Assembly (NCBI RefSeq): GCF_964199755.1
Contig: NC_133901.1
Span: 21,919,583-21,983,582 of the forward strand
Length of the DNA: 64,000 nucleotides
Direction of reading: 5' to 3'
From: Larus michahellis
Lineage: Eukaryota; Chordata; Aves; Charadriiformes; Laridae
Made by a program: the position numbers and the translations under genes. Position 1 is the stretch's first letter; every line of letters begins with the position of its first letter. Below are positions 4,439-53,151 of the stretch, in pieces. The notes under the pieces were generated by a model that saw only the letters and a list, made by a program, of their open reading frames with translations, made no database searches and had not been told where the DNA came from.

Positions 4439-4500
4439 TATCATAGAATGGTTTGGGTTGGAAGGGACCTTAAATATCATCTAGCCCCAACCCCCCGTGT
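4439..4500 (-). mobile_element. CR1 LINE 3' fragment, antisense
   Basis: The segment starts with ATCATAGAATGG and continues with GGTTGGAAGGGACC and a CATCTAG motif. This is the reverse complement of the 3' end of avian CR1 elements. Only about 60 bp remain, so it is a severely 5'-truncated or eroded copy on the minus strand. Confidence 0.85.
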
Positions 4501-7500
4501 TATCTAGCAACAGCAAGAGTGGCAGAATAAAGCTGTGAAGCAAAGCACGGCTCGGGACACCCGGGTCCCAGCCTTGGCTTGCCCTTTGCCATGTTAAGAA
4601 AATCATAGATGGTTCGTGTCACTTTGCCTGCAAAACAAGGAATCTTCTAAAGGGCTTTGAGAAATACTAATGACTGTCATATGCAACTCAAACCCCTTCC
4701 ACTGCAATGTGGAAGTACCCTTTTAGAAAAAAATAATCGCAACAATCTAATTTCTTCAGATGAGGTAATGTGGTTACATTAATTTTTCAGTCAACAAATG
4801 TTCTCATTTAAGAGCCCCAGCTGACAAAATAATGGAGCCATCAAGATGCAGATGTAAACAAAACACTTGCAGTACCATGTGAATTAAGGCAAAACCGAAA
4901 AGGTATTAACTCTTGTGGGTACCAATACAATGAATTCTGGTACATGTTCAAAGAAGAACTCCCTCAGGTCTTGAGGAAGGTGTTCAGCAGCTTGTTATGT
5001 TCAGACCAAATGCAGAATTTCTCCTCAATCTGCTTCTTGGGGGAGGACCTTAAATACGAGGACACAACGAAGCTTACTGCAGGTTTTAAGAGGAAGATGA
5101 TGTGAGCAGAAACATTTTTCTTTGCTGGACAAAAGCCACTGATAAACAGAGAGTACAAACCAGCTGCATCTGGGATGCTGTCAAGTCGTCGCACAAAAGA
5201 GGAATTAAAAATCTACCCCTTCCTTTGCCTGAGTAAAAATTGCAGGGTGGTCACTTTCTTTTGTATATAATTATACTAATAAGCTTGCTAGTGTATTTGT
5301 TATGGATTATGTATTCTGTGTGCATTATTAACAACATGACTGTTTGTCCCACTGCACTCATAAGGAAAACATAAAACCCAGACAAATGAAAGCAGAAGCG
5401 GCTGTGGCTATTAAGAACAATTAAGCGCTACACAGCCTCTCTGCCGGGGGCCGCTCTGGAGTGGTTTAATGGAGCAGATCTCACGTTATGATGTACATTT
5501 TGATAACGTTGTCTTGCATAGTCAGGTATAACTATCTGCTCTTCTGCAGGAGCTTTGGTTGCACAGCAAGAAACAGCTATAGCTACCAAGAGGGTGCTGC
5601 CTATTTAATATCTGCTCATTTCATTTCATTTCAAAATGGAGCTGGAGATTCATTTGTTAGAAATAAAGTACTTCACGGGGAGATGAGCTATCTATTTTCT
5701 GTGGCTAGAAGAGGAAAGGATATTGACGTCACCTTTTAGCTTGAAATCAGCTTGAAATTTCCACGTAGTTCTGTTATACAATGTGCAGTTCTTTTATTTC
5801 AAGCTCAAAGTCCCTCCTTTTGTTTATGAAGATGAATCACAAACAATATGGCTTGCACACCCCGTAAGTGAGATGGTCTTCTAAAAAGTGACATATTTAC
5901 TCATACCAGGGTTTGGATTTTCCAGAGCTTATTTTCTTCTTGTACAGAGTCTCTGAAAGAACCTGTCCTCTTATACATAGGTTTGTATCTCTATCTCCTT
6001 AGATCCGAAAACATTCTTGCGTCCAATATTTTCATGGAGTGCTCCTTGAATAAGATCCTGTCGGCAACGTTTGTGCCAAACAGCTCCCCGGGGCTTTGGT
6101 CAGCTCGGGAGCCTGGGTAGCCCAGGGGAAGGGAGTGCTACAGGCTGTGGTAGGAGGGGAATGAAACTCAGGAAGTTAAACCTACCACCAGTCATGCTTG
6201 AGCGTGTTTGTTTTGTGTGGCATCTTTTCTAGGTCCTCTGCATGCCTTGTAAATTAGGTCTGTTATTGCCTGGTAGTATATTCAAGGAATAATGGTTGAA
6301 ACAGGCACCTGTGAACCTCTGTCCCTTTGCTAGAATCATTATTTCAGAAAAATGAGATCAGCTAAAGAGGTAGTAGTAATAATAGCATGCTAAATTAATA
6401 TATATGTTGTAAAACTTCATTGTTTTGACAGTCAGACAGTTACGTTGACTTTAAAAAAACCCCAAACCCGTCAAACCATAAACCCTACAGCCCGATGGTT
6501 TCAATTTCCACTTGAAGAAAATATCTAATACCCTCTGAAACAGGTCCCTTAGGAAGGCTCTCAGGTCTGGGGACCTACGGGAGCATTAGGGAAACTGTGG
6601 TGCCACAGGTATCAGCACAAGGGAAAGAGGAGCATTGAGCCTGCTCGCTGTGTGGGGCCGGCTGTGCGGCAGAGGCCATCCGAGCACAAGTTTCAGGGCA
6701 AAGCAGAAGCGAAGGTTGGAACTTCAAAGCATGTTCGTCTTCCTTTCCTTGGCCCTGCGATGAGCTGCTGGGATGTGGAATGGCTGCCTCCCGGCTGCCA
6801 TAGCAACGTGTTGCTCAGCCCTGCATCGCAGGGGCGAGGGAGATGCTCCTCAGAGCCTGTGGCTCAGCAGCCGCTGAGGGGGAATGGAAAAGCTCTTTTT
6901 TAAAGCACCATTGTATGTCATCATTGAAGGAAAGGCAGGCAGCTAAAGGAGAAAAAAAGATTACTGTTGTCTTCACTGAGCTTTGCCCAATCCCTGCTAA
7001 AGGTATTTTTAATTATTTGGTCTGGTGTCACAATGGTGTTTATCAAGTGTGTTGAACAGTGTGTTTGCAACCACCTCCATCCAAGCTGTGAGTGCCCAAG
7101 GCCCCGCACAACCTCTGGCTGGCCCACATGGCAGCCCCATGCCGCAGCACGCAGGTTGTAGCCCTGGCCAGGAGACGAGATCCTCGTGCCTGGGAGGCTG
7201 CAGGAGCACAAATCCTCCTGCGTGGTGCTTCCCCCAGTACAACCCCTCTGAGATGTTATCTCAGAGCCCTCAGTCCCCCGCCAAGCTCCTCAGTCCCCCT
7301 CCAAGCTCAGCCCCAGGACAGCAGGATGCTCCCAAGGGAGCCAGCCTTTCCAAAAAACCTCTTCTTCTGGGAAAGATGTTTTGCAGTGATAAACAAACCA
7401 CTCCTCACCTGATGTGTGAGGGGAAGACCTGAAGTGGTGGGAGGATGGCCTGGCTACAGCCCGGAGAGCCAGAGGTGTGCACAGCCAGCTGTGACACTGT

Positions 7501-9611: not shown

Positions 9612-11495
9612 TTACATATTTTCCATTGCCCGTTTAGTAATGTGATCTCTTTCAAGCTCTGATTTCTCCTGTTTTAGGTACTCTAGCACCTTTGCTAGCA
9701 TATCCTCATCCGGATACTGCCTGTTTTGCGTGTCATCAGTTTCCCCAGCCATGGAAAGCCTTTTGCTGAGCGAAGTCAACTTCGCGGCCTCTTGTGGTCC
9801 CAGCTGGCTTAGGTGCTCCCTGATGGCCTGCTCCAGCCGGTCATCTTCCTGCAAGTCGCTTTCAGAAGCTGGAACTGGGACTCGTTTCATCTGGTTCGTA
9901 TTGATAACTTCAGGATATTTTGCCAACACCTTTGCCAAGTAATCGGCCAGCTCTTCATCCTTCTCGTTCAGTTTCTCATACTCCATTTGTCGCCTTTCCA
10001 AATCATTCATCCAGGCAGCTTTAGGAAACGGGTGTCCTTTCAATCTTCTGGGAATGTAAGACAGTCTTGGCAAATCATTTTCTTGATTAAGACGATTTAG
10101 TAAGTAGGAGGGATTCTGATTAGCTAAATTGTCAGTTCCCAGAAGACTGACAATGTCTTCAATATTGAGGTCTTCAGGTAGATTTTCTGGAATAACGTTA
10201 AGGGGCTGCTTCATGTACCCGTTTTTAGAGTTTACATTACTTTTAAATATATCGCTCTGTCCTAGATTAGTTTCAGCGATCTCGTTGAGGTCTTCTGGGA
10301 ATTCCGCTTCCTGCTCAGCTTCCAACCTTTCACTCTGAAGCTGCTTTTTTTCTCCAGCTTTCAACATGTCTATTAAATCCTCAGGAGGAATTTGTAAATT
10401 CCTTGAGATTTCTATCAGCTGAGCTATAGACTGAGGATCGAGTTGCTTATCCAAAAACGTGGGTGCTCTTTTTTCCTCAAGTTCTCCTCCAGTCCTTAAT
10501 TTCCTATTTGCAGCACCGCCCATCAGCCTCTTCAGGTAAAAATTCATTAGCTTTGAAACGTCCTCTGACATTTGATCTTTATTGTCTCTTCTTATTTCAT
10601 CCTCAAGGAAGCTGAGTTTCCCTGATCTTTTCATTTCGTCATCAATCTCCTCTTCATGTTTATCAATTTCCTCTTTGCTATCTTTTATCTCTTCCTGGGT
10701 TTGACTTTCCACTTTTTCCTCTATGGGATTCCAGTCTTCTCCTCCAACCACATCTTCATAGGCAATGTTATTCACTTTATATACATCATCTTCATCATCT
10801 GTATACAATTTCTGGTCCTCATCCAGCCTTTCTTTCTTGTGGTTACTAGGTCCTGCCATCTTCCCCAACTCCTGAAACACGGACTCCAATGTAGCAAGGC
10901 TTTGGGGTGTGTATTGCTCTTCCACTATTTCATTAGTACGCTTGAAAGGACTGTCTCGTGAACTGTCTTCATAGTGCCCAAGTGGCATTTTGAGATATTT
11001 TTGCCACCTCTCAGGCCACTTGTAAGCCTCATAATCTTCAGTTACTCCAGCTGGAAAGCTGTTATCTGAACTCAGACCGTAAGGTTTATTCTCCTTCGGG
11101 CCAACTTTTGACTCTTTCTCAGCTTGCCGCAAAGCTTCCAACATTACCTTAACCCATTGGGACTCATCTTCAGTCAAAGAATCCCTTACATTATCTGGGA
11201 GGCGAACCTGATCTTTGCTTTCTTTCTGGTGCAGGAGATACGGGACACCTTGATAAGAGTTGTAATCAGGGCTACTTTCTCCCTTGTTCGTTTGCTTCCG
11301 AAGATCTTCTATGTATTCCAAAGCTTTGATCATGTCAGGATTTGGGAATCGTTGTAAGTTTTTCATTACATAGTCTGGGTCTTTCTGAAGCAGCTGATGC
11401 TGCTGGAAGGAAGCTGCATCAACCCAACAGATCAGGACAAAGAAAAAGGTGAGAGCACAGGCTGCTTCAAGCTGGAAGGTTTTAGTTTCTGCCAT
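9612..11495 (-). CDS. SCG2: Secretogranin II (chromogranin C) precursor
   Basis: This is a complete 627-codon CDS in one exon; mammalian SCG2 is about 617 residues. The product is an acidic granin packed into dense-core granules of neurons and endocrine cells, where prohormone convertases cut it at dibasic sites. Residues 1-27 form a signal peptide ending VDA. The frame matches human SCG2 throughout, including the start MAETKT, the block NRQYPDEDML near the end and the C-terminus KRAMENM. Dibasic sites include 185-186, 220-221, 289-290, 322-323, 342-343, 483-484, 501-502, 537-538, 578-579 and 621-622. The only cysteines (13 and 23) lie in the signal peptide, so the mature protein has none. 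I start at 11495 because the frame upstream to 11642 crosses a splice acceptor (AG at 11510-11511) and would bury the signal peptide. The CDS is intact and the identification is very secure. Confidence 0.97.
   Translation of the reverse strand: MAETKTFQLEAACALTFFFVLICWVDAASFQQHQLLQKDPDYVMKNLQRFPNPDMIKALEYIEDLRKQTNKGESSPDYNSYQGVPYLLHQKESKDQVRLPDNVRDSLTEDESQWVKVMLEALRQAEKESKVGPKENKPYGLSSDNSFPAGVTEDYEAYKWPERWQKYLKMPLGHYEDSSRDSPFKRTNEIVEEQYTPQSLATLESVFQELGKMAGPSNHKKERLDEDQKLYTDDEDDVYKVNNIAYEDVVGGEDWNPIEEKVESQTQEEIKDSKEEIDKHEEEIDDEMKRSGKLSFLEDEIRRDNKDQMSEDVSKLMNFYLKRLMGGAANRKLRTGGELEEKRAPTFLDKQLDPQSIAQLIEISRNLQIPPEDLIDMLKAGEKKQLQSERLEAEQEAEFPEDLNEIAETNLGQSDIFKSNVNSKNGYMKQPLNVIPENLPEDLNIEDIVSLLGTDNLANQNPSYLLNRLNQENDLPRLSYIPRRLKGHPFPKAAWMNDLERRQMEYEKLNEKDEELADYLAKVLAKYPEVINTNQMKRVPVPASESDLQEDDRLEQAIREHLSQLGPQEAAKLTSLSKRLSMAGETDDTQNRQYPDEDMLAKVLEYLKQEKSELERDHITKRAMENM
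9765..9881 (-). other. SCG2: Manserin-type peptide (residues 539-577)
   Basis: This segment lies between KR (537-538) and KR (578-579), begins VPVPASESDLQ and ends LTSLS. It occupies the position of mammalian manserin, which is 40 residues; here it is 39. Both processing sites are preserved. Confidence 0.75.
10632..10832 (-). other. SCG2: EM66-type peptide (residues 222-288)
   Basis: This stretch lies between KK (220-221) and KR (289-290). It starts ERLDEDQKLYTDDEDD and ends DDEM, like the mammalian EM66 peptide. It is 67 residues here, one more than the mammalian name implies. It is very acidic, which suits calcium-driven aggregation in granules. Cleavage is inferred from the flanking basic pairs. 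Confidence 0.75.
10839..10937 (-). other. SCG2: Secretoneurin peptide (residues 187-219)
   Basis: A 33-residue segment lies between KR (185-186) and KK (220-221). It begins TNEIVEEQYTPQ and ends GKMAGPSNH. Its first 26 residues appear identical to human secretoneurin as I remember it, with substitutions only in the last seven. Secretoneurin is a neuropeptide with chemotactic, angiogenic and reproductive hormone effects in vertebrates. The strict conservation contrasts with the drift in the rest of the precursor. Confidence 0.93.
11415..11495 (-). other. SCG2: SCG2 signal peptide
   Basis: Residues 1-27 consist of a short polar start with one lysine, a hydrophobic core rich in F, L and V, and an end of VDA before AASF. 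Human SCG2 is annotated with a signal peptide of the same length. It directs the precursor into the endoplasmic reticulum. Confidence 0.85.
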
Positions 11496-13831
11496 ATTTA
11501 AAATATTTCCTTGAAATAAAGAAGGAGAAGGAAAAAAGAAGCAGTTAACATATGGAGACAGAATTAGCAAACTGAGAAGCAAAACAGAGATTGTTATTTT
11601 AAACTGGAACTCATCATGAAGAATACCACCAGTGCTACACATGTTTTTATTAATTACGGAAAACTAATATAACTCATACATGGCAGACATGTAGTTTGGT
11701 GGAAATATGAGATTTTTCTGAACCTTTCCCATGATTCCTCAGTTTACTGGAAACTACTGGTTTCCTACGCTAGCAATTTCTTATCTCTATGCTCAGTGTA
11801 CTTTATGAACATCAGTTTTCCCATGGCAGCACCAAAGTATAAAATACAAATCCTATACAGCTCATGAACTGCCCTCAGAGGAATCTAGATGTCATTTTGA
11901 TTATGAAAATGGAGGCTTCAAATGGTAAAATCAGTATATCCATATATTTAAATGCCACTCAAAAAATTAATATTAAAACTGCATACAGAATTATTTTGTG
12001 AGATTGTTCCATAGGGTATCTAATTTCATGCCAGGGTAATACCACTGAATGGTGCTAGACTGCAATAAAATTCATGTAATGAAGTGGAGAACATAGCATA
12101 TAAATGAGTTTCGGGTTTATTTCTGTCATTACTGTTAGCGTTATTACTTCCTTTTTCACTATTTCATTTTTAAAAATATTATTTATATTACAGGTGAGTT
12201 TTAGTTAAAAGGCTCTGTGAGCAAACCATTTTCCTATGGGCAATGATCCTCTATATGAAGGACAAACTATAATTTATCCTCTAGGGACAATATAATTTTA
12301 CTGAATCTTTTAAAGCCCATCTCAGAAATGAGCTCGAGTAGGTAGGTCCTGAGTGGTGATTTCATTCATTCATTCACTGCAGCAGAAATTGAATCAGGTC
12401 CCAGGACAGGCAGGAACGTGACCGTTGGCAAAGGTGAGCAAAATTCAGTTAGAATAGATCCATATTGTCTAGTCAGTGTGCCCAGCTTACACCAGCCAAC
12501 AATAAACCCTGGAAAAGAAGTGGCAAAAATATGCATCCATCCGAATTAACAAGATTACCCACTGCTGCGTATGAGGATAGAGCTGCAGAAGCCCAGCCCT
12601 GCGGGGAGCTGAGCACCCTCCACCCAGCGAAGGGAAAAATTGCCATCACTTTTTTCCTGGGAGATGCTCAGGCACTGATACGCTGGGGCCGTGAGGCAGA
12701 TTAGACTCTTTTCTGATCCAGTTACATTGGCAAATAAAGCACAACAATGAGAAAGAAACGATAAAGATAGAAACCACTTTAATTGACCTATTTTGGTGCC
12801 TTTGGTTTTTGGCTCAGTAAAAGCATCCTGTTGAGACGTTGGTGATTAATGACAGACTGAAAGAGCTAAGTATACCACTATTTACCGACTGCTGTAAGTA
12901 GAAAGTGAGCGTAAATATGCCTATTTCTGCTCACTTGTAGATTCTTACGCTCAGTTTTTGTTCCTAACATAATGTGACTTAACTAAATAATTAAAGCAGG
13001 ATGAGTTCAGAGAGCTGCTTTTCTCCCCTCAGTATGCCTGACCAAGCTAACAGCTACAAGAGCAAACAATTTCCCCAAACGTTTCTGACTACTCAAGCCT
13101 GGGTAGGACTGACCATTGATTTCACAAAGAATTCGCTCAGAACAGCTGATTAGAAGGTCCCACCCTCAAGACCAGAGTTTGCCCTGAAACAAAGCCAATA
13201 CACAGTTTTGTTGTTTCCTGTCACAGAAAAGGCACTAGTCCTATAGATAAAAATGTGCTTCTCCATGAAAAAAAAAAGCACTTTTCTACCTATTGTAGTA
13301 AATAAATGAAATTAAGACTTTCTTTTCCAGCAGAGAGACTGGTTCTTCACAGAGTTATTTTGACCAGTGCATGAGAAACTCTGTCCTGTCCAAGGGGTGG
13401 GGGAAGGGAGAGTTGTTCCATAATTATCTGCCAGGCACCTCCCACTCACAGAGACCTGGAACTCAACCTCCTCCACTGCACACAATTATGTATTGTCACA
13501 GCCTCTGTAAGAGTTGTCAGCATCCCAATAAAATGAAAATGCGCATAGTCGGGCAAAGTTTACTTTAGTGTTCCACAGGGATGTTGCTCAACTGGATATT
13601 TCCCTTGCAGGAATAACAGGTCATTGGCTCCTCTCTGGATATGTTGGGTATATTTGTCTCTAGATCAATTTTTGCTTCTAGTTTATTGGTATATGATACT
13701 TGAAAGCCTTGTCAAATGGGCTTGGGAATGATTTCTTTTAAAAGCTTTGAGTTCAGGTCATAAAATCTTGTCATTAAATATACTGCATTATCTAGGGTAA
13801 GAGGACTCCTTCACAGTCTTTCAGACTTTGA

Positions 13832-13864
13832 TTCTTCTTCTTTTTTTTTTTTTTTTTTTTTTTT
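13832..13864. repeat. TTC triplets running into T24
   Basis: A short TTC repeat is followed by 24 uninterrupted T residues on the plus strand, so A24 on the SCG2 sense strand within intron 1. Length polymorphism is likely. Confidence 0.9.
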
Positions 13865-14203
13865 GAGAAAACAGAAGACATTTTAGACTATCTTTAGAAT
13901 TTGTATTAACACATTCTCTTCTGTGCCTCTCAAGGGACAATAAGCTAAAATGGCTGGTTTGTCTACAGATGGATAATTGTGAAGCTAGCTTAGATGGGGA
14001 GCATATTTTCTCCTCTATTAGTACCTAACAAGCAGGAAAATCATCTTTTAGGCAACAAAAGTAGAAGTTTCTATCTACAAAATGAGGCGATCGAGTTCAC
14101 AATTTAACATGCACAAAGGCAATGCAGACTGACAGAAGTTCCTGAGAAAACAGGCAAAACAATAAATCTCCTTTCTGGGATGTTTCCATGGTAGCAGTAA
14201 TTT

Positions 14204-14229
14204 TCTCTCTCTCTCTCTCGATCTCTCTC
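14204..14229. repeat. CT dinucleotide microsatellite
   Basis: CT repeats in two blocks separated by CGAT, within SCG2 intron 1. The short repetitive acidic/basic stretch in the opposite-strand open frame over it is a by-product of this repeat. Confidence 0.9.
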
Positions 14230-14972
14230 AGCAGTCATCTCGGATGTGTATGTAATGTTTCCAGTGAAAATCTGCGATGAAAACTCATAAGCTTTCCTAT
14301 AGTCCCTGCCCTGAGAGTCTGTGGGGGAATCCGACAGCCGTTTTCCATAAGGAAAATAAGGAAATATGTCACGCACTCTTCCTCCCTTTTTACTTTTGCA
14401 ATAATTAACAGGACTGCAGTAAATTTGCGCTTTTTTTAAGTATATGTAACACTTCATCCTGTGCAAGGGACTCAAACCGTAAACAAAATAAGAATGAGGT
14501 GAGGAGAAGGAGAAAACTGCAAACCCCAAGCAGTTGTGGATGAATATAATGCCTGTTTGTACACCTGGAGAGTCAGTCAGATTGTGTTTGCGTCCAAGGT
14601 AACCTCTCAGCCTATATTTTGACGCGGCTGTAGTGCCGTGTCGGCGAGCCAGCACAACTGAGCGCAATCGCAAACAGAAACGTTTTGCTTCCCGCCTTCA
14701 GCCACAAACCACGCTGATAATACATATAAAATATATATATAGCAATAGGTCTATGTTTTATAGATATATTTCATTGCAAACAGCTACAACCCCATCAACT
14801 TTCTGCTGTAACTCGCCGTTTCACTTCATCCCCAGCGGGGTTTTTTTGTGGGTTGATCCCCGCCCGGGTGGCAGCCGCGGGAAGGTGGCACAAGGGTCGC
14901 CCGGACCTCCCCGGACCCCACCGTGTCTCCCCCCGGCCGCGGCCGCCCCGCGGAGCCCGGCGCAGCCCCTAC

Positions 14973-15006
14973 CTGCCCGCGCCGCTCCCGCCGCCGCCGC
15001 CGCCGC
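14973..15006 (-). other. SCG2: SCG2 exon 1 (noncoding), inferred
   Basis: Transcription should start about 25 to 30 nt past the TATA box, that is near 15005. A good splice donor, CAG/GTAGGG, occurs at 14971-14972. This gives a first exon of only about 33 nt, largely a CGG repeat, and a spliced 5'UTR of about 47 nt. A weaker alternative donor about 50 nt further downstream cannot be excluded. Confidence 0.5.
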
Positions 15007-15010
15007 CGCC
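14988..15010. repeat. SCG2: CCG/CGG triplet repeat, about 7 units
   Basis: Seven CCG units plus two bases on the plus strand read as CGG on the SCG2 sense strand. The repeat lies in the inferred first exon and touches the RE1 site. CGG repeats in 5'UTRs can vary in length and affect translation, but this copy is short. Confidence 0.9.
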
Positions 15011-15028
15011 AGCACCACGGACAGCGCC
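15008..15028 (+). promoter_or_regulatory. SCG2: RE1/NRSE silencer (REST binding site)
   Basis: The bases AGCACCACGGACAGCGCC (15011..15028) match positions 4-21 of the 21-bp RE1 consensus exactly, and position 3 also matches, for 19 of 21. REST bound to RE1 recruits corepressors and silences neuronal genes in non-neuronal cells, and SCG2 has been reported as a REST target. The site lies between the TATA box and the inferred start of transcription, so occupancy could also block initiation physically. Binding itself is inferred. Confidence 0.88.
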
Positions 15029-15030
15029 CG

Positions 15031-15036
15031 CTTATA
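15031..15036 (-). promoter_or_regulatory. SCG2: TATA box of SCG2
   Basis: The minus strand reads GGTATAAGCGGG inside an otherwise very GC-rich region. It lies 16 bp downstream of the CRE and about 60 bp upstream of the first-exon splice donor, which sets the direction of transcription toward the CDS. Confidence 0.8.
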
Positions 15037-15052
15037 CCGCCCTCGACGCGCC

Positions 15053-15060
15053 TGACGTCA
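15053..15060. promoter_or_regulatory. SCG2: CRE (TGACGTCA) of the SCG2 promoter
   Basis: A perfect cAMP response element palindrome lies just upstream of the TATA box. Granin genes, including mammalian SCG2, are known to use a proximal CRE for basal neuroendocrine and cAMP-induced expression through CREB/ATF factors. The same position here supports conserved control. A half-site GCGTCA lies about 30 bp further upstream. Confidence 0.88.
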
Positions 15061-15186
15061 CCGCGCGGCCACGCCCCGCCCGGGCGGCGTCACCGGGGAC
15101 GGGCCGAGGCGGTGCCGGGCACCCGCACCGCCATCCCCGGGGGGCAGGCTGAGGAACAACCCCCCCATCCTTCCTCCGCATCGCGG

Positions 15187-15565
15187 GGGTGTGCAAATAA
15201 AGAACGGGAGGGGCGGGACACACGAGAAAAAGGGGGAAAAGAAAAGGCAAAAAGAAAAAAAAAGGAAAAAGGGGAGAAAAGGCAAAAAGAAAAAAGGCAA
15301 GAAGAAAGAAGGCAAGAAAAAAAGGAAGAAGATAAAAAAGAAAAAGATAAAAAAAAGAAAAAAGAACAAAGAAAAAGGGGAAAAGACGAAAAGGAAAAAA
15401 GAAAAAAGGTGAAAAGAAAAAAGAAAAAAGACAAAAAGAAGAAAAAAGGAGAAACAGGCAAAAAAAAAACCCCAAAAAAAAGAAAGAAAAAGGAAAAAAG
15501 ATGGGGGGGGAGAAAGAGGGGAAAAGGGGAAGAAAAAAAAAAAAGGAGTAAGAAGAAAATAAAGT
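15187..15565. repeat. Polypurine GA/A-rich tract
   Basis: The plus strand is almost entirely A and G for over 330 bp, mostly GAAAAA and AAGAAAAAGG units with rare C or T. It lies directly upstream of the SCG2 CpG island. Long lysine-rich plus-strand frames and phenylalanine-rich minus-strand frames over it are artefacts of composition. Such tracts can form triplex (H-DNA) structures and vary in length. Confidence 0.92.
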
Positions 15566-38697: not shown

Positions 38698-38883
38698 GCA
38701 CCTCTGCTATGAGGATGTCTGAGAGAGTTGGGATTGTTCAACCTGGAGAAGAAAAGGCTCCAGGGAGACCTTAGAGCCCCTTCCAGTCCCTAAAGGGGGC
38801 CTACAGGAAAGATGGGGAGGGGCTGGATGAGGCTTTGAGCAGCCTGGTCTAGTGGTCCCTTCCAACCCAAACCATTCTATGAT
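38698..38883 (+). mobile_element. CR1 LINE 3' fragment with internal deletions
   Basis: It reads CCTCTGCTATGAGGA, then GAGAGAGTTGGGATTGTTC and CTGGAGAAGAAAAGGCTCC, and ends CCAACCCAAACCATTCTATGAT, all typical of the CR1 3' region. Compared with the copies at 42 and 44 kb, about 180 bp are missing at GGGGCTGGATGAGG and about 55 bp more at AGTGGTCCC. Both junctions show a few bases of shared sequence. Confidence 0.9.
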
Positions 38884-41962: not shown

Positions 41963-42456
41963 TCTGGAGTCCTCAGCACAAGAAGGACATGGATGTGTTG
42001 GAGAGGGTCCAGTAGAGGGCCACAAAGGTGATCAGAGGGCTGGAGCACCTCTCCTATGGGGACAGGCTGAGAGAGTTGGGGTTGTTCAGCCTGGAGAAGA
42101 GAAGGCTCCAGGGAGACCTTATAGCAGCCTTTCAGTACTTAACGGCACTACAGGAGAGATGGAGAGGGACTCTTTATCAGGGAGTGGAGCGATAGGACAA
42201 GGGGTAACGGTTTTAAACTGAAAGAGGGGAGATTTAGATTAGATATTAGGAAGGAATTCTTTACTGGGTGGTGAGGCACTGGAACAGGTTGCCCAGAGAA
42301 GCTGTGGATGCCCCATCCCTGGAGGTGTTCCAGGCCAGGCTGGATGGGGCTTTGAGCAGCCTGGTCTAGTAGGAGGTGTCCCTGCCCAGGGCAGGGGGGT
42401 GGAACTAGGTGATCTTTAAGGTCCCTTCTAATCTGAACCATTCTATCATTCTATGA
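41963..42456 (+). mobile_element. CR1 LINE, 5'-truncated, about 490 bp
   Basis: It begins CTGGAGTCCTCAGCACAAG and contains the CR1 block GGGCCACAAAGGTGATC. It runs through the pol C-terminus and 3'UTR to end with CCATTCTATCATTCTATGA. Short frames on both strands over it derive from the element. Confidence 0.95.
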
Positions 42457-44206
42457 ATGCCAGATCTTCAGCCTTTCAGTAAAATCCATGTCTTGCCCTA
42501 TCAAGGGCATTTGCTTTCCCGAGACCTTTTTCTAGAGAAGATGGGTATGGCTGAAGTGGTTGCAGCCAGTGAGACGTAGCTGACAGTCAGAGCTATATTA
42601 CATAAGCTTTGCATGAAATTGTTAAATCATGTATATGCTGGGCTGACACCAATGACTTTCCAAAAGCTATTTACAGTGGTATCAATAAATCGATGAGATC
42701 ACTGTCCTTCTCCCTCACTTCCCAGTACCTGGATTCTACCAGATCCAGGTAAATCAACTGCGTCTTCATAATGAAAACAGAAATTTAATTATTCACAAGC
42801 ATTCCCCTTGAGCTTTCTCTGGGCTTTTTGTGAATGATTAACAGAGCAGCTGCTCCAGACAGCACTCTCAATCCCTGCTTGCTGGCCTGTTAAAAGCAGT
42901 GACTCATCAGCACATGACGTCAAACCCTCCTCTCCTCTGAAATGGCAGGAAGGAGGTTTCATTAAAAAGATAAAAAAAGGTATCAACATAACAGCCTGAA
43001 CTTCCTCCCAAACGCACGGGGGTTTGGTCAGGGGTCATCTCTGCCGCTGCTGCCGCCCAAAGAGTTACACCGCGTGTACGCACCGACGGCTCCTTCACAG
43101 GGTAAACTTTTCTGTTGAACACTAAAAAACAGGAAACGTACTTCCTCGGGCAAGCTGATTTTTTTTGGATACTGACTCAAAAGTCAAGCTGAAAGCAAAC
43201 TGAAGCCCCTCGTGCATCTTGCAGGAGCGCCTCCCTGCTCAGCGGGGCGGTGAACGGGCGCATCTCCACTCTCCCCACCTGCATCGCCTCACAAGATGTT
43301 TGCACAACCCAAAGTAGCTGTTAAGAGCTCCTTGAAACTGCCCCAGTAACACTTCCCAGTAACACCTGATAAGGGTGCCCAAACAGACACGCAGACAAGC
43401 AGCAACAAGTCCAGTGCTGCCAAATTCAAGACCCGTCCCCCCCTTGCCTCCCTGCCTTGCTAAGGTTGCGCTGAAATGTGCAGATGGGAAAAAAAATGGA
43501 TTCGAACGCAGCCATGATTCCCTATCTTTGTGAAGAAACGTGGGCCCAGCACCATGAAAGTTAGAAGCAAAAGAAGTGTTCTAGGGAGGGGCTGCTTCTC
43601 TGTAGTTAAAATTCAGATTTTTACTCCAGATGGCAAGTCCTGCTGTCACACGGACAACAGCATTTCACCCAGAAAATCTGCAAAGCAACAGAGAGGGGAG
43701 CAAGCCGGCTAATTTGAGATTTAGCCCTTACATGGGATTAATTACTGACGTCTGTGATACTTTTATTTCCTCTGCTAGCTTTGGGCTGCAAAGCCAAGCC
43801 TCAGCCTCCTTGGAACATCCCAGCTCGGCTCTCGGTCTGGGCTGGGCGGTGGCAGGGGACAGGAGATGCATTTGGCTCCCTGGAGGGCAGCATCGCTTAC
43901 AGCCTGCCGCTCCTGACTGCCCCCAGCGCGGAGCTGGGAGCAGAAACACGACTCTTAGCTCTTCCCCTTCATCAATGGCAGTCGATTAGGGAGTTAAATG
44001 GAGGTTTGGAAAGAGACCATGGCACCATGGGGGCTGCTCGGGCACATGGGGCTAGTGCCAGAGCTGGGGAACGCTGCTGGGGCACGGGCGTTCCCACCTG
44101 CACTGCTGTCCCTGTGAGGCGGTCAGGCCATGGTATGATATGAAAGCCCCAAGCTGACTGAAACGACTGACCAAACATACACCACATCTCTTGATCTGGC
44201 CGGCAG
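42457..44206. other. Intergenic, no gene recognised
   Basis: No exon recognised. A perfect CRE palindrome at 42915 is listed separately. A GC-rich patch at about 43.75 to 44.1 kb yields overlapping chance frames on both strands. Confidence 0.5.
42915..42922. promoter_or_regulatory. Perfect CRE palindrome (distal)
   Basis: TGACGTCA occurs in AT-balanced intergenic DNA about 28 kb upstream of SCG2 and 11.5 kb beyond the 3' end of the AP1S3 CDS. No core promoter is seen next to it. A role as an enhancer CRE is possible but unproven. Confidence 0.3.
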
Positions 44207-44766
44207 ACCCAGAGAGGTGATTCTCCCCCTCTGCTCTGCTCTCGTGAGACCCCACCTGGAGTACTGCATCCAGCTCTCAGCGCAAGAGGGACGTGGACCT
44301 GTTGGAGCAGGTCCAGAGGAGGGCCACAAAGATGATCCGAGGGCTGGAGCACCTCTGCTATGAGGAAAGGCTGAGGGAGCTGGGGTTGTTGAGCCTGGAG
44401 AAGAGAAGGCTCTGAGGAGACCTTACAGCAGCCTTCCAGTACCTGAAGGGGGCCTACGGGAAGGATGGGGAGGGGCTGTTTGCAAGGGCATGTAGCGATA
44501 GGACGAGGGACAATGGTTTAAACTAGAGCAGGGTAGGTTTAGATTAGACATTAGGAAGAAGTTCTTTACACTGAGGGTGGTGAGACACTGGAACAGGTTG
44601 CCCAGAGAGGTGGTGGAGGCCCCATCCCTGGAGACATTCAAGGCCAGGCTGGATGAGGCTCTGAGCAACCTGATCTAGTTGCAGATGTCCCTGCTGACTG
44701 CAGGGGGGTTGGACTAGATGGCCTTTAAAGGTCCCTTCCGACCCAACACCTTCTATGATTCTATGA
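44207..44766 (+). mobile_element. CR1 LINE, 5'-truncated, about 560 bp
   Basis: The longest CR1 copy in the window. It runs from TTCTCCCCCTCTGCTCTGCT and GAGACCCCACCTGGAGTACTG through the reverse transcriptase C-terminal region to the 3'UTR, and ends CTTCTATGATTCTATGA. The 5' boundary is approximate and may extend slightly left. The coding frame is broken. Confidence 0.95.
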
Positions 44767-46962: not shown

Positions 46963-47174
46963 CAGAAAAAATTTTTCATTCTGAGGGTGCTGAGGCACAG
47001 AAACAGGTTGCCCAGAGAAGCTGTGGATGCCCCATCCCTGGAGGTGTTCCAGGCCAGGCTGGATGGGGCTTTGAGCAGCCTGGTCTAGTGGGAGGTGCCC
47101 CTGCCCAGGGCAGGGGGGTGGAACTTGATGGTCTTTAAGGTCCCTTCCAACCCGCACCGTTCTATGATCCTATG
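46963..47174 (+). mobile_element. CR1 LINE 3' fragment, about 210 bp
   Basis: It begins in the element's TTCATTCTGAGGGTGCTGAGG block and includes CAGGTTGCCCAGAGAAGCTG. It ends CGTTCTATGATCCTATGG. It is close in sequence to the copy at 41963..42456. Confidence 0.95.
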
Positions 47175-53081: not shown

Positions 53082-53151
53082 TCATAGAGTCACAGAATGT
53101 GTTGGGTTGGAAGGGAGCTTTAAAGGTCATCTAGTCCAACCCCCTGCAGTA
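53082..53151 (-). mobile_element. CR1 LINE 3' fragment, antisense
   Basis: GTCATAGAGTCACAGAATG followed by GTTGGGTTGGAAGGGAGC and CATCTAGTCCAACCCCCTGC is the reverse complement of a CR1 3' end. About 70 bp are kept. Confidence 0.9.

Follow-up and report, generated by a model that had tools for sequence, protein, structure and literature searches.

Results

Organisation of the probable SCG2 locus

The stretch of DNA analysed here, referred to below as the window, comprises 64,000 nucleotides of the genome of the gull Larus michahellis. Its minus strand carries an open reading frame (11495-9612) which begins with an ATG at 11495, encodes 627 amino acids and closes with a stop codon ending at 9612. 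The product matches the Pfam Granin profile along its entire length (profile positions 1-585 of 585, E 4.3e-128), and it is a Granin family protein whose coding sequence is contained in one exon. We provisionally take this reading frame to be SCG2, a name given from its apparent resemblance to human SCG2/secretoneurin and from the match of a mouse Scg2 primer at the exon 2 boundary (see below), and the gene is, judging from its sequence, the probable SCG2 orthologue. The protein gave 4 pattern matches in viral_contigs and 46 in genome_contigs, none of which was confirmed; the lack of a relative in these two collections is expected, since this is a vertebrate gene.

The predicted gene model, on the minus strand, consists of a non-coding exon 1 (14973..15007, 32-35 nt according to the presumed start), an intron 1 of 3463 bp (11510..14972) and an exon 2, which up to the stop codon (9612..11509) holds a 14-nt leader and the whole SCG2 coding sequence. 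Exon 1 would end at the donor CAG|GTAGGG, which matches seven of the nine positions of the donor consensus and is the best donor from about 15010 to 14700, the runner-up reaching six. A mouse Scg2 primer reported in PMC1802832 agrees with the acceptor and the 14-nt leader at 19 of 27 positions, an uncontrolled count made by hand. The predicted 5' UTR would measure 47 nt from a start at 15005 and 49 nt from one at 15007. In its 35-nt form the predicted exon 1 folds no better than its own shuffles (z 0.48), and its length of only 32-35 nt raises a mild doubt about the position of the start.

Elements of the core promoter

A cAMP response element (CRE), a TATA box and an RE1 site are located within 53 bases (15008..15060) at the start region of the minus-strand SCG2 gene. 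The order along the gene strand is TGACGTCA (15060-15053), TATAAG (15036-15031) and GGCGCTGTCCGTGGTGCTGGC (15028-15008), the last being the RE1 in reverse complement. The first-pass annotation had reported a perfect CRE, a TATAAG box and a 19-of-21 RE1 inside 53 bp, and each of the three was found exactly where it had been placed. The surrounding region (14860-15180) has a GC content of 0.81 and an observed/expected CpG ratio of 1.01. Further upstream on the gene strand, a GC-box/KLF-like cluster (CCGCCC, GGGCGG, GGCGTG; 15070..15087) and a CRE half-site, TGACG (15088..15092), were recognised from sequence alone, the former by known motifs. A scan of the window against Rfam at the gathering threshold returned no matches.

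A degenerate purine-rich tract of approximately 330 bp (window positions 15237-15563), composed of AAAAGAA-like units, begins some 180 bp upstream of the CRE, and A and G account for 93% of positions 15201-15560 on the plus strand. Such a tract might fold into a non-standard DNA structure or delimit the promoter.

The CRE (15053..15060, minus strand) is the full palindromic consensus TGACGTCA, located in the proximal promoter with its centre around 50 bp upstream of the putative start. This octamer arose in 11 of 20,000 dinucleotide shuffles of 14860-15180. In the whole window it is observed three times against 0.31 expected, and at least three copies were found in 1 of 100 shuffles; the element is therefore persuasive by its position rather than by its presence. 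The two other perfect copies, at 5724-5731 and 42915-42922, are away from the SCG2 promoter and were set aside after inspection of about 130 bp around each. The TATA box (15031..15036, minus strand) is the only place on the gene strand between 15300 and 14763 where any of the scanned TATA-type patterns matches, and a minus-strand TATAAG arose in 18 of the 20,000 shuffles of the same local region.

The RE1/NRSE (15008..15028) lies on the plus strand, antisense to the gene, and was scored against the 21-base canonical consensus. It agrees at 19 of 21 positions and features both half-sites at the canonical spacing; the two misses are the first two bases (GC for TT, 15008-15009), outermost in the left half-site. 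This is the best RE1 of the whole window, with 2 mismatches against 6 for the runner-up. When the local 321 bp (14860-15180) were shuffled 20,000 times with dinucleotide counts preserved, no shuffle contained an RE1 with three or fewer mismatches, and the best shuffled site, with four, appeared in 5 shuffles. With a looser RE1 pattern applied to the whole window, a site with at most 3 mismatches was present in 4 of 100 shuffles. When a looser 17-mer is used, the promoter RE1 scores 16/17, but this pattern is unspecific when taken alone because a minus-strand site at 44649 obtains the same 16/17; 23 further RE1-like sites with two misses to the 17-mer occur in the window.

The RE1-like site at 44649 was set aside, as it sits in a CR1-like repeat. 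The 3' ends of CR1-like LINEs, identified by two query pieces with 6 and 4 matches, are distributed across the window at 38823-38868, 42340-42434, 44649-44744 and 47059-47153, and also at 4455-4471 and 53104-53120; their presence is in keeping with a bird genome, though not proof of one.

Putative start site and promoter geometry

Transcription would begin near 15007-15004 on the minus strand, as suggested by the spacing from the TATA box. Two pyrimidine-purine steps, 15008/15007 and 15005/15004, fall in this zone (15004..15007), 29 and 32 bp away from the leading T of the TATA box (15036). The RE1 would then span -21 to -1 for a start at 15007, or -24 to -4 for a start at 15004, with the centre of the CRE near -50. 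Since the TATA spacing sets the start near 15007-15004, the RE1 would fill the stretch from about -24 to -1, which bears out the earlier proposal that it occupies the gap between the TATA box and the start, for a start positioned by TATA spacing.

A (GGC)7 tract (14990..15010, minus strand) covers the putative start and overlaps three bases of the RE1, and both RE1 mismatches fall inside this overlap. A parsimonious view would be that the repeat has expanded into a margin of the element under little constraint. Moreover, the position of (GGC)7 at the putative SCG2 start makes it a possible source of length polymorphism in the 5' UTR.

Discussion

Known control of SCG2 in mammals

Both types of regulation suggested by this promoter have been reported for mammalian SCG2. 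According to PMC4055426, REST occupies SCG2 in all 16 of the human cell types studied, neurons included, and the group of 15 known REST targets to which SCG2 belongs has a median FPKM of 0.02-1.1 in non-neuronal cells and of 16.2 in neurons. Scg2 is reported as one of the secretory-function genes that respond to dominant-negative REST in mouse neural stem cells (PMC2573930), and its strong repression, with a listed value of -10.21, is described for PC12 cells with high REST (PMC4639699). A functional CRE in mammalian SCG2 was described by Cibelli in 1996, as cited in PMC548273, where ATF2 and CREB are presented as being in competition at this element. Given these CRE and REST reports, there is good ground for opposed inputs from CREB/ATF and from REST at mammalian SCG2, and the sequence found here contains the elements which both require. 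Furthermore, the promoter found here is the expected orthologous one, because the mammalian gene is a known REST target with a functional CRE. The first-pass annotation had suggested cAMP/CREB activation set against REST silencing; the mammalian reports support this pair of inputs, while their use in this bird would hold by analogy. By the same analogy, REST silencing of SCG2 outside neurons is likely.

Among the literature matches listed, as represented by their titles and abstract openings, the CRE-TATA-RE1 order at SCG2 is not described, which constitutes a weak negative. Under the terms used, SCG2 or secretogranin is not named in the retrieved parts of PMC1794552, PMC9903721 and PMC3320604.

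A proposed mechanism and its alternatives

We consider it highly probable that the 53 bases constitute the SCG2 core promoter, in which a TATA-directed start is driven by CREB/ATF and silenced by REST through the RE1. In neurons and endocrine cells, CREB/ATF bound to the CRE would drive initiation from the TATA box, whereas in REST-rich cells REST bound to the RE1, between the TATA box and the start, would recruit corepressors and keep the gene off. REST is a recruiter of corepressors, and TFIIB and the polymerase make contact with core promoter DNA. The RE1 covers DNA needed for these contacts, and REST bound there may in addition impede the formation of the initiation complex. This additional steric step, also raised in the first-pass annotation, fits the geometry and goes further than the evidence, and we hold it as a tentative proposal, somewhat more likely to be wrong than right.

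The most serious alternative shares the promoter and REST reading and denies just the steric step: REST would silence SCG2 by corepressor recruitment alone, and the position of the RE1 between the TATA box and the start would carry no mechanistic weight. We give this an even chance, and its odds overlap with those of the best explanation. It is favoured by the report that histone marks and chromatin are perturbed much alike at promoter RE1s and at RE1s far from promoters (PMC2687797). The persistence of REST on SCG2 in human neurons (PMC4055426) points in the same direction, and a simple steric block is hard to square with it, because, taken together, the known targets show expression in these cells. 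What speaks against corepressor recruitment alone is the very stretch which the RE1 occupies, from the TATA box to the putative start, together with a published direct interaction of NRSF with TBP, accompanied by core promoter repression, according to the title of a reference in PMC4596026.

It has also been reported that, in nine human cell types, REST summits less than 50 bp from starts are associated with expression above that of unbound candidates, significantly so in seven (PMC4055426), which weighs against the steric step. Such a pattern would suit an RE1 with a dual role, a silencer outside neurons and an activator or neutral element within them, as in the NRSE of a nicotinic receptor gene, for which Bessis 1997, cited in the same article, described activation in neuronal cells when REST lies within 50 bp of the TATA box. 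The strong repression of Scg2 in high-REST PC12, a neural line (PMC4639699), argues against this, and we judge a dual role at SCG2 unlikely. In addition, peaks with an RE1 motif are 2.6 times likelier than RE1-free peaks to be found at an unexpressed gene (PMC4055426), and since RE1-bearing peaks go with unexpressed genes, silencing is favoured at a site like that of SCG2. That the RE1 might be a fortuitous, unused match beside the GGC tract is suggested by the location of both mismatches in that tract and by a region which is 81% GC; this explanation is very improbable, as none of the 20,000 local shuffles reached three mismatches and mammalian SCG2 is a known REST target (PMC4055426). A bolder extension of the CREB/ATF and REST reading, according to which the core promoter would act as a mutually exclusive switch, with either REST or the initiation complex taking the 21 bp of the RE1, and with (GGC)7 length tuning the competition between lineages, is offered as a long shot.

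Significance and comparison with known systems

The arrangement is real and correctly read, and it is largely expected, both kinds of control being already known for mammalian SCG2. Its interest is confined to the placement of the RE1 at the start site, and no new mechanism is claimed. Should this geometry prove common to amniotes, SCG2 would offer a clean natural experiment on whether REST represses by occupying a core promoter besides modifying chromatin; otherwise, the find would extend to another lineage the control already known in mammals for a granule gene.

The promoter of mammalian SCG2 is the closest known counterpart, alike in its functional CRE (PMC548273) and in being targeted by REST (PMC4055426). 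For other granin genes of the secretory granule, namely ChgA, ChgB, Scg3 and Scg5, strong repression is likewise reported in PC12 cells with high REST (PMC4639699). The nicotinic receptor gene NRSE (Bessis 1997, as cited in PMC4055426) resembles the SCG2 element in being no more than 50 bp away from a TATA box, but it belongs to another gene and is reported to act there both as an enhancer and as a silencer.
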